In this document: in pieces, positions 42,469 to 45,112 of the stretch
Layout of the letters: every line of letters begins with the position of its first letter
How positions within the stretch are numbered: position 1 is the first letter of the stretch
DNA from: Williamsia deligens
GTDB taxonomy: Bacteria; Actinomycetota; Actinomycetes; Mycobacteriales; Mycobacteriaceae
Assembly (NCBI RefSeq): GCF_024171765.1
Contig: NZ_JAMTCI010000001.1
Location: 1,954,557-2,018,556 of the forward strand
Direction: 5' to 3'
Length of the DNA stretch: 64,000 nt
Notes under the pieces: generated by a model
What the model saw: the letters and a program-made list of their open reading frames with translations, nothing else
What the model was told of the DNA's origin: nothing
Database searches by the model: none
Translations under genes and position numbers: made by a program

Positions 42469-44109
42469 TCACCGACCGAGCTGCGCCGCTTTGACGACGA
42501 GCAGAACCGCTCCGACCACGAGATACGCCCGGAGTGCGAGCATCCCGAGTCTCGTCCCCGACGACCATCTCACCGGTTCCAGCAGGGCCAGTGGCGGCAT
42601 GCGCCACTGCTCTCTGTCGACGGCACCCCAGTCCACGAGGTCGACGGTCCCGGGGTTCCGGTGACGGTTCGTCAGCCGGAGCGCGACCGCGCCGGTCCCT
42701 CCGAGTGCTGTGATCCCGGCCGCCAGCCAGATGCTCAGGGTGACCACGTCCCACGCGGGGAAGAGCGTCGTCGTCATCAGGATCGCCGACAGCAGGATCA
42801 ACACGGCCACGATGGCCACCGCGACGGTGTTCAACCACCGCTTGTTGACCCACGGTCCGAGCACCTGGCGGTCGTTGCACAGCAGCAGGAGGAAGACGCT
42901 CGCGCTCGGCAGCAGCAACCCGGCGAGCGCCTGGACCGCGGTGGTGATGAGGCCGAGCGGGGCGCCCGGGATGAGCACGATCGCCGCGGCGACGACGACC
43001 ATCCCCGTGTAGGACAGGTAGAACTTCCTGGCGTCGCGGACCCCCCGGTGCAGTGAGTGCTTCATGCCGAAGACATCGCCGAACGCGTAGCTGGTGGACA
43101 GGGTCACCGCGGCGGCGCCCACGATCGATGCGTCGAGGAGCACGATCGCGAAGATGGTGCCGAGAAGGTGGCTGTGGTGCGCCAGCATGGTCGCGATGTC
43201 CCCGGCGTCGCTGCTGTCGATCCACGTTCCCGCATGGGTGGAGCGGGCAGCGAAGTCGGCGGTCGCGACGAGGGCTGCCGCCCCGATGACGACCACGAAG
43301 GCCCCGATCGTCGTGTCGACGCGCTCGTAGCCGATGAACCGGGGTGTGATCCGCTTGTCGATGATGTTCGACTGCTGGAAGAACAGTTGCCACGGCGCGA
43401 CCGTGGTGCCGACCATCGCGATGATCAGCAACACCGCGTCGGCACTGATGCCACCCCGTATCCCGGGGACGACGAAACTCGTCGCCGCCTGCGCCCAGTC
43501 CGGGTGACTCATCAGCAGCATCGGGATCTGCAGCAGGGTGATCGCGATGAACACGAACATCGCCCGTTCCCAGCGCTGGAAGCTGCCCGTCGCGATGATG
43601 ACGACCAGTGCGACCGCGGCCGTCGGGACCACGATGTACGACGAGACACCGAAATAGTGTGCAGCGAGGCTGATCCCGATGAACTCGGTGACGAGCGTCA
43701 GGAAGTTCAGGACGAACAGGTCACCGACCGAGAACCAACCCCACCCGCGGCCGAACCGTTCGTTGATCAGGCGGGCGTGGCCCACACCGGTGACCGCCCC
43801 GAGGCGCACCACCATCTCCTGGTTGACGATGAGGACCGGGATCAACAGGAGCAGGACCCACATCAGCGAGTACCCGTAGCTCTGCCCGGCCTGCGCATAG
43901 GTGGCGACGCCGCCGGCGTCGTTGTCGCCAACCATCACGATGAGGCCGGGACCGAGGACGGCCAGCATCGTCATCAGCCGGGTCCTGGACGTCCGGCCGG
44001 ACTGTGTCTGCGACATCGAGACGCTGCCCAGTGCGCCCGTGATGTCGCCGACGTGCGCGGTGTCCAGGTGCGCGGACCGCATGGAGACCGCGACATCCTC
44101 GCGGCTCAT
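42469..44109 (-). CDS. NRAMP-related divalent cation transporter, likely Mg2+ (NRMT-like)
   Basis: 546-residue membrane transporter with about eleven or twelve helices. The first helix has GPGLIVMVGDNDAGGVATYAQ, where classical NRAMP proteins have DPGN, and helix 6 has MVGTTVAPWQLFFQQS, where they have the MPHN motif. The metal-selecting methionine is therefore replaced by alanine, the change associated with NRAMP-related magnesium transporters. It is translationally coupled to mgtC (ATGA overlap at 44106-44109) downstream of an M-box riboswitch, which independently points to Mg2+. ATG 44109 is preferred because of that overlap. A separate Mn2+ role is possible but less likely. Confidence 0.82.
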   Translation of the reverse strand: MSREDVAVSMRSAHLDTAHVGDITGALGSVSMSQTQSGRTSRTRLMTMLAVLGPGLIVMVGDNDAGGVATYAQAGQSYGYSLMWVLLLLIPVLIVNQEMVVRLGAVTGVGHARLINERFGRGWGWFSVGDLFVLNFLTLVTEFIGISLAAHYFGVSSYIVVPTAAVALVVIIATGSFQRWERAMFVFIAITLLQIPMLLMSHPDWAQAATSFVVPGIRGGISADAVLLIIAMVGTTVAPWQLFFQQSNIIDKRITPRFIGYERVDTTIGAFVVVIGAAALVATADFAARSTHAGTWIDSSDAGDIATMLAHHSHLLGTIFAIVLLDASIVGAAAVTLSTSYAFGDVFGMKHSLHRGVRDARKFYLSYTGMVVVAAAIVLIPGAPLGLITTAVQALAGLLLPSASVFLLLLCNDRQVLGPWVNKRWLNTVAVAIVAVLILLSAILMTTTLFPAWDVVTLSIWLAAGITALGGTGAVALRLTNRHRNPGTVDLVDWGAVDREQWRMPPLALLEPVRWSSGTRLGMLALRAYLVVGAVLLVVKAAQLGR

Positions 44110-44813
44110 CGGACGCTGTCCTGCAGTGCGGTGTCGCGGTCCCACCGCACCGACCGGACCGCGGTCTGCGCGCCGAGCCGGACCACGGCGGCGTCGATGT
44201 GGTCGTCGTCGCGGTGATCACACACGGCCTCCAGCACGATGCGGGTCGCGTCGTCGGTGTCGGTGACGTCGATCCCGCGGACACGGACGTCGGCCCCCGA
44301 GATCTGGTCCAGCAGCATCGCGCGGACCGCCGGCCCGGCGTCGCTGTCCGTGACGACGGTGACGGTGTAGCCGGAGGGGGTCTCGTCACCCGACTCCGGG
44401 TGCCTGTCGACGGCGCGGCCCAGCCAGCGGAGCGCGACGTTGACCGTCACCACCGCGACGGTGCCCATCGCGGCGACGTCGTAGAGGCCGGCGCCGGCGA
44501 GGGCGCCCACCGCGGCCGAACACCAGAGTGTTGCCGCCGTGTTCAACCCCCGTACACCGAAGCCGTCGCGGAGGATGACCCCGGCGCCGAGAAATCCGAT
44601 GCCCGAGACGATCTGGGCAGCGACGCGCGTCGGGTCGGCGGTACCGCCGGAGAAGCCGTGCGCCGACAGGACGACGAACAGCGTCGCGCCGGTCGCGACG
44701 AGGGCGTTGGTGCGCAGACCGGCCATGCGGGCGCGGTACTGGCGTTCGAAACCGATCAGGGTGCCCAGTCCGAGCCCGCAGAGCAGGCGCAGCAGGGTGT
44801 CGAGTGTGGACAT
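44106..44813 (-). CDS. mgtC: MgtC/SapB-family membrane protein
   Basis: 235-residue protein. The hydrophobic N-terminal half shows the MgtC hallmarks LLCGLGLGTLIGFERQYRARMAGLRTNALVATGATLF and SGIGFLGAGVILRDGFGVRGLNTAATLW. The C-terminal 90 residues (YTVTVVTDSDAGPAVRAMLL) fit an ACT-like soluble domain. MgtC proteins are made under low Mg2+ and influence ATP synthase or growth inside hosts; they are not themselves proven transporters. ATG 44813 has an ideal GGAGG 6 nt upstream. First gene of the riboswitch-controlled operon. Confidence 0.9.
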   Translation of the reverse strand: MSTLDTLLRLLCGLGLGTLIGFERQYRARMAGLRTNALVATGATLFVVLSAHGFSGGTADPTRVAAQIVSGIGFLGAGVILRDGFGVRGLNTAATLWCSAAVGALAGAGLYDVAAMGTVAVVTVNVALRWLGRAVDRHPESGDETPSGYTVTVVTDSDAGPAVRAMLLDQISGADVRVRGIDVTDTDDATRIVLEAVCDHRDDDHIDAAVVRLGAQTAVRSVRWDRDTALQDSVR

Positions 44814-44907
44814 GGCAAGCCTCCGTATGGCCGTGTGCCGCGCGGGCATCACGGTCGTGGTCGATACGTGACGGACGGGCGGTCACATGACCGGAGCAGG
44901 AAACGCC

Positions 44908-45066
44908 CCCTCGTAAGACCTTTGGCACTCCGCGGCGTGGACCTCGACAGGAGTCGAGGAGCCAATCGGGGTCAACCCTTAAGCCGGGAAGACCTGTCCT
45001 GACCCGTGGCGTCTCTGGACGTTTGGGGTCGCTGGCGTGTTTCCGCGAAGGAGCCTCAGCGAACGA
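44908..45066 (-). promoter_or_regulatory. M-box (ykoK leader) Mg2+ riboswitch
   Basis: On the minus strand this leader carries the conserved M-box blocks in order: GAGGCTCC (45050-45057), AGAGACGCCACGGGTCA (45000-45016), and AGTGCCAAAGGTCTTACGA (44911-44929), each close to the B. subtilis mgtE aptamer. Mg2+ binding compacts this RNA and switches the downstream gene off when Mg2+ is plentiful. About 95 nt separate the aptamer from mgtC, with a GGTCATGTGACC hairpin at 44880-44891; no strong intrinsic terminator is seen, so Rho-dependent or translational control is possible. Confidence 0.9.
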
Positions 45067-45083
45067 TGGCACCGTGCGGGGCC

Positions 45084-45112
45084 AGTAGACACCCGCTCTC
45101 GACGTGGGGCAA
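45084..45112 (-). promoter_or_regulatory. promoter of the riboswitch-mgtC operon
   Basis: Minus-strand TTGCCC (45107-45112) and TCTACT (45084-45089) separated by 17 bp, placing the start of transcription about 10 nt upstream of the M-box. Confidence 0.5.

Follow-up and report, generated by a model that had tools for sequence, protein, structure and literature searches.

A likely Mg2+-starvation operon, made up of an M-box sensor RNA, mgtC and nrmT, a gene for an NRAMP-related Mg2+ transporter (NRMT), lies on the minus strand (42469..45112) of the 64,000-nucleotide stretch of DNA analyzed here from the soil actinobacterium Williamsia deligens, which we call the window (NCBI RefSeq assembly GCF_024171765.1, contig NZ_JAMTCI010000001.1, positions 1,954,557 to 2,018,556). 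Such an operon would be a minimal, self-contained unit for Mg2+ starvation, with sensor, MgtC and transporter in 2.6 kb. At high cell Mg2+ the M-box is predicted to fold and the operon to be off; as Mg2+ falls, the leader would open and mgtC would be translated, and nrmT, presumably on the same transcript, would be translated by coupling to mgtC through an overlap of the two genes. The NRMT would then admit Mg2+, and probably some Mn2+, and MgtC would adapt the physiology of the cell to low Mg2+. A transport role for MgtC is not part of this model, as MgtC is not itself a transporter (PMC13209247). The greater value of the module may lie in what it points to, namely a candidate Mg2+ importer of the ATP-binding cassette (ABC) type.

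The covariance model RF00380 matches an M-box (ykoK leader) Mg2+ riboswitch aptamer at 45074-44901 on the minus strand across all 169 model positions (cmscan; score 120.3 bits, gathering cut-off 44 bits, E 2.4e-26), and a search of the 4.41-Mb Williamsia genome with the same model found this single copy. The M-box that a preliminary description had named from the sequence alone is therefore present, with a significant and full-length match. Upstream of it, also on the minus strand, a -35-like hexamer TTGCCC (45107..45112) and a -10-like hexamer TCTACT (45084..45089) stand 17 nucleotides apart, the latter 9 nucleotides before the aptamer, and a by-eye reading finds TTGC..-N17-T..ACT upstream of all four Williamsia M-boxes. 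Together, the E-values and the retention of the unit in two congeners put these assignments far beyond chance.

The first gene after the aptamer, mgtC (44106..44813, minus strand), has the ideal ribosome site ascribed to it earlier, a Shine-Dalgarno (SD) sequence GGAGG at 44824-44820, 6 nucleotides upstream of the ATG at 44813; GGAGG also precedes mgtC in both congeners that have the unit. The product, of 235 amino acids, carries an MgtC domain (PF02308, 129.2 bits; cut-off 31.4) and an MgtC/SapB C-terminal domain (PF21770 MgtC_SapB_C, 48 bits; cut-off 27). Its score of 185.7 bits with the NCBIfam equivalog PRK15385 lies under the cut-off of 255, making it a family member below equivalog level, and the gene is 77.5 and 78.7% identical to the M-box-linked mgtC of two other Williamsia genomes. 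The TGA of mgtC shares the letters ATGA (44109-44106) with the ATG of nrmT at 44109, which is the 4-bp overlap reported before.

nrmT (42469..44109, minus strand) encodes an NRAMP-family protein of 546 amino acids (PF01566, 265.4 bits) whose signature, phylogeny and predicted fold are of the NRMT type. NRMTs are marked by DxxG-TxxA/T and transition-metal NRAMPs by DxxN-A/CxxM (PMC8806188; papers cited by PMC number were available in part, and our statements on them refer to those parts). The window protein has DNDAGG in helix 1 and TTVAPW in helix 6; DAGG fits DxxG and TTVA fits TxxA/T, and the DxxN and A/CxxM of the canonical NRAMP/MntH site are missing. The preliminary description had read the motifs correctly, as DNDAGG for DPGN and APW for MPH, but had taken them for a changed metal site, whereas they are the ordinary published NRMT motif. 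We therefore reject a novel metal site and regard the transporter, on its sequence, as a normal NRMT.

Comparison with solved structures agrees with this assignment. EleNRMT (7qia) is the closest solved relative by sequence (E 4.9e-62), ahead of canonical NRAMPs, and comes first again when an AlphaFold model (39-row alignment; mean predicted local distance difference test score 83, predicted template modeling score 0.84) is searched with Foldseek (template modeling score 0.87 by target length, 33% identity). A FastTree phylogeny of 118 rows, some duplicating one locus, places the window protein in a group of 101 rows that includes EleNRMT, outside the Mn2+ NRAMPs and split from 17 MntH-type rows with a support of 0.999. 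The helix-6 histidines of NRAMPs, which are tied to proton coupling (PMC8806188), are replaced, one by W (MPH to APW) and the second, by our reading of the alignment, by Q (N in EleNRMT); the conserved Asp, Glu and Gln are kept. The nearest named relative, from an uncultured Williamsia, is 87% identical. Two extra C-terminal helices (455-482, 517-545; region 42469-42800) are predicted beyond the EleNRMT-like core. Elsewhere in the same genome are one separate NRAMP gene with DPGN and two CorA genes, and a genome search found no MgtE. Signature, tree and the separate DPGN-type NRAMP led us to reject the identification of the transporter as an Mn2+ NRAMP.

The leader offers a suggestion of how the M-box might act on mgtC. 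Directly after the aptamer lies CUCC (44893..44896, minus strand), a candidate anti-SD element that emerged from a motif count over 12 leaders. Eleven of the 12 have CTCC in the spacer that separates the aptamer from the first SD (shuffle mean 5.7), a count reached in 1 of 2000 dinucleotide-shuffle rounds; three motifs were tried, the other two being CCTC (10 of 12 leaders; 12 of 2000 rounds) and CTCCG (4 of 12; 588 of 2000). The set comprises the window leader and 11 others, picked among those of the 90 surveyed loci that have mgtC, nrmT or the ABC transporter described below downstream; it spans 8 genera with several close relatives. L163, which hardly differs from L162, and the nrmT-bearing loci of genus g35 are not part of it. 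Thus, we infer that the expression platform is probably translational, with masking of the SD, like that of the pe20 M-box of mycobacteria. Outside Williamsia (9 of the 12 leaders), the first SD is followed by an open reading frame (ORF) of 16-36 codons; in Williamsia the first SD is that of mgtC, the gene that the switch would control directly, with no short ORF in between. The short ORFs in L096, L162, L165, L166, L168, L092, L093 and L167 start 51-113 nucleotides past the aptamer, and several of those found after M-boxes begin MPDD, MTDD, MPEG, VPDG or MPSGD. These acidic, proline-rich starts presumably resemble leader peptides of the MgtL type.

A number of results weigh against the operon as we have drawn it. 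Across all 12 leaders, the anti-SD duplexes were not predicted to be stronger than those of shuffled spacers (Fisher 0.15 for the SD, 0.39 for the aptamer 3' end and 0.19 for the sum), with P at 0.05, 0.15 and 0.047, respectively, when four near relatives were left out. In constrained folding of the window leader, release of the aptamer 3' strand left the SD closed (P unpaired 0.19 vs 0.12), and the fold of the whole leader was barely better than that of shuffles (z -1.54). The promoter claimed about 10 nucleotides upstream of the M-box stands as far as the hexamers, their spacer and their recurrence by eye are concerned, but a strict consensus scan found no match in the upstream regions. In addition, an mgtE_N-like gene lies directly upstream of nrmT at 71 of 76 related loci, and the window has none; because the arrangement is so common, the window species most simply lost its mgtE_N gene, leaving the 4-bp overlap. 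Finally, NRMTs can carry Mn2+ (PMC8806188, PMC4072509).

The leader might instead work by Rho-dependent or other transcription termination and not by masking of the mgtC ribosome site, an alternative that we regard as possible but somewhat doubtful. It would fit pairing energies that are not significant across the 12 leaders, and Rho termination has been shown for the mycobacterial pe20 M-box (PMC12810186). Intrinsic terminators numbered zero in the window leader, which also fits and on which we rejected control by an intrinsic terminator. On the other hand, the CUCC that 11 of the 12 leaders carry in the aptamer-SD spacer argues for masking, and Rho termination and SD masking can operate jointly (PMC12810186). 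We keep to translational masking as the probable platform, and perhaps Rho also acts in the window leader.

The metal itself can be questioned in a similar way, for the transporter might serve mainly Mn2+, or Mn2+ as much as Mg2+, with the M-box answering Mn2+ or a general shortage of divalent metals. EleNRMT has an affinity of about 400 uM for Mg2+ and transports Mn2+ as well, with a Michaelis constant (Km) of about 120 uM (PMC8806188), the NrmT of A. capsulatum restored Mn2+ uptake fully and Mg2+ uptake poorly (PMC4072509), and a mycobacterial M-box may bind other divalent ions (study cited in PMC12810186). These properties of EleNRMT, and the behavior of one NrmT without an M-box as an Mn2+ transporter, also leave the high-affinity importer of the preliminary description unsupported. 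We nevertheless consider a primary role in Mn2+ unlikely, given that the genome has its separate DPGN-type NRAMP, that the M-box-linked NrmT Ca_c0685 complemented Mg2+ uptake and not Mn2+ uptake (PMC4072509), and that mgtC and further Mg2+ genes accompany M-boxes. Mg2+ is thus the substrate that we predict.

It could also be asked whether the M-box governs mgtC only, with nrmT expressed mainly from elsewhere or a mere neighbor. Congener G002 has an M-box and mgtC without nrmT, and at 67 of the 80 loci that carry close relatives of nrmT, no M-box was matched in the fetched flanks (<=4 kb) by R1, a model that we built from 9 of 10 aptamers, leaving out the decayed L009. Against this, the 4-bp overlap leaves scant space for a separate nrmT promoter, and nrmT follows a same-strand M-box also in congener G006 and in 14 other surveyed loci, so that we judge a switch limited to mgtC very improbable and retain the operon of sensor, mgtC and nrmT.

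Within the genus, the unit is accessory. An intact M-box with mgtC was found in three of eight Williamsia genomes, in the order M-box, mgtC, nrmT in G000; M-box, mgtC, mgtE_N-like gene, nrmT in G006; and M-box, mgtC, ABC permease, ABC ATPase in G002. The same hydrolase-dehydrogenase gene follows the unit in all three. Searches found no M-box in G001, G003, G005 and G007. G003 presents an empty site (L232), with the hydrolase-dehydrogenase gene about 120 bp from a homolog of the gene upstream of the unit in the window and no mgtC or nrmT match at this syntenic locus; the genome holds one weak and different MgtC-domain match (52.7 bits). G004 retains a decayed M-box (L098:8330-8489, 59.6 bits) with a conserved 5' part and a lost 3' strand, and neither mgtC nor nrmT is present in that genome.

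Beyond the genus, a survey of 397 genomes of the order identified M-boxes in 33, and one of 394 genomes of the class in 26, of which 11 lie outside the order. These surveys drew on genome samples under strict filters; genes in relatives were called either with tblastn, using a small number of references, or by eye, and several of the contigs were truncated. Besides the window, we examined 90 M-box loci, one of them (L169) under the Rfam cut-off; tblastn detected nrmT downstream of 16, an ABC transporter of 7, a close MgtA homolog of 4 and CorA of 5. One of the query references, AApermL099, matched no locus but its own and does not enter these counts. The remaining loci among those listed were PE/PPE- and ileS-linked as in mycobacteria, MgtE-like or unclassified. 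All 16 NRAMP-type proteins after M-boxes have TTVAPW, with DAGG in 15 and DAGA (DxxA) in one, L167; DAGA also appears in three rows beyond these 16; one is L038, and the other two, both M-box-linked, are second copies of nrmT in L059 and L061.

M-box, nrmT and mgtC stand together on one strand at six distinct loci (labeled window, L094, L092, L167, L059 and L061), which include the window, G006 (= L011), G019 and G043, with the other two in Kitasatospora sp. MAP5-34 and Actinacidiphila oryziradicis. Their gene order differs, being for example M-box-nrmT-mgtC in G019 and nrmT-mgtE_N-...-mgtC in G043, and by this evidence the three elements either came together several times or were rearranged.

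Twelve of the 16 M-box-linked NRAMP-type proteins are 49-52% identical to that of the window, and ten of these twelve come from one genus of the same family, g35. All ten, from M-box loci L109, L111, L120, L126, L137, L140, L142, L149, L155 and L161, bear the NRMT signature. Because they fall in one clade with a protein of Mycobacterium aquaticum in the FastTree phylogeny, g35 is probably Mycobacterium. One report describes an 'Mn2+-type' class of mycobacterial M-box (PMC12810186), and in M. avium a 'manganese/iron transporter' has been noted after the ykoK leader (PMC3774663). The signatures in g35 and its position in the Mycobacterium clade argue that these manganese labels are probably wrong, and that the M-box-linked 'manganese transporters' of mycobacteria are probably NRMT-type proteins; the 'Mn2+-type' class would then seem to be made up of loci with an M-box and nrmT.

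The transporter slot of the syntenic Williamsia locus is occupied by nrmT, by mgtE_N-nrmT or by a two-gene ABC transporter, and the last of these deserves particular attention. In its permease two BPD_transp_1 domains are fused, and its ATPase carries a C-terminal PF09821 AAA_assoc_C domain; by eye, no binding-protein gene adjoins it. At E 0.001, a sequence comparison with solved structures matched only a CmpB and a nitrate permease, and NCBIfam gives the permease only matches below cut-off. We assembled 25 homologs with 49% or more identity to the G015 permease (12 from the 397 order genomes, G002, 6 from the 394 class genomes, 5 from 326 genomes of the phylum, and Streptomyces L066), leaving out seven further phylum relatives at 31-41% identity. 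Seven of the 25 follow an M-box (L095:4549-8443, L096:4839-7980, L162, L163, L165, L166 and L168), six of them with mgtC between. Four others have the order mgtA-mgtC-ABC (L203, L204, L205 and L211, three from one genus), two the order ABC-mgtE_N-nrmT (L066, L220), and one lies beside nrmT on the opposite strand (L213). No link to an Mg2+ gene was seen for 11 of the 25, some of which are at contig ends and which include three similar genomes of one genus; L208, whose ABC sits close to an mgtA fragment where a contig begins, is not among the linked loci.

To see whether ABC loci without an evident M-box hide one, L203-L206 and L098 were searched with Rfam, which matched only the known L098 remnant, and an R1 search of L203-L214 and L066 had its best match at E 0.22 (11.8 bits); M-box searching did not extend to the phylum loci L216-L227. 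Genes for ArsR-like regulators were seen by eye beside mgtA or the ABC genes (L204:1229-1651, L205:1018-1374 and L213:3499-3915), and perhaps such regulators replace the riboswitch at loci where no M-box was found.

As an M-box indicates which products a cell makes under Mg2+ shortage, an ABC transporter that takes the place of nrmT behind it becomes a candidate Mg2+ importer. The slot shared with NRMT under an M-box and the company of mgtA and mgtC amount to strong guilt by association, from which the substrate is predicted. It is tempting to speculate, tentatively and with some leaning towards doubt, that the M-box and mgtC form an accessory module whose transporter slot can take different occupants, and that one of them, the two-gene ABC system, would be a so far unrecognized ABC-type Mg2+ importer. 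The literature matches listed contained nothing relevant on an M-box- or Mg2+-linked ABC transporter, and the phrase 'ABC transporter' occurs 0 times in the available part of a review of Mg2+ transporters (PMC9276622). The ABC genes are a candidate, open to direct testing, for a type of Mg2+ importer absent from those matches.

The combination of M-box, mgtC and nrmT, of which the preliminary description knew no earlier account, is new in part. None of the literature matches listed has all three in one operon, although gene-context figures or supplements could hold it; both pairs, M-box with NRMT and M-box with mgtC, are already known, and the triple is new in arrangement and not a new system. 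Shin et al. reported in 2014 that M-boxes control NRMTs (PMC4072509), and the M-box-NrmT operons of Clostridium acetobutylicum and relatives in that work likewise place an M-box upstream of an NRAMP-related Mg2+ transporter. In those operons the usual partner is an MgtE N-domain gene, absent in the window but present in G006, and 'mgtc' occurs 0 times in the available main text. EleNRMT and the window protein have the same fold (predicted here), the DxxG-TxxA site and the loss of the proton-path histidines (7qia, PMC8806188), but their identity in the Foldseek alignment is 33%, and the window protein is the longer of the two, with its extra pair of predicted C-terminal helices.

An M-box operon ending in mgtC is known from Mycobacterium (PMC12810186). 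The M. tuberculosis pe20 operon shares with the window an M-box, a polycistron with mgtC and a leader of the anti-SD type without an intrinsic terminator, but has a small upstream ORF and PE/PPE genes before mgtC, and no nrmT in the available description (PMC12810186); in the window the SD is that of mgtC itself and nrmT follows directly. In Salmonella, mgtCBR likewise has a long regulated leader, with mgtC first and an Mg2+ transporter second, but the leader contains short ORFs and is not an M-box, the transporter is the P-type ATPase MgtB and not an NRMT, and an extra peptide, MgtR, is present (PMC3641672). The comparison suggests that Actinobacteria have rebuilt the Salmonella logic of mgtC plus a transporter under the control of an M-box.

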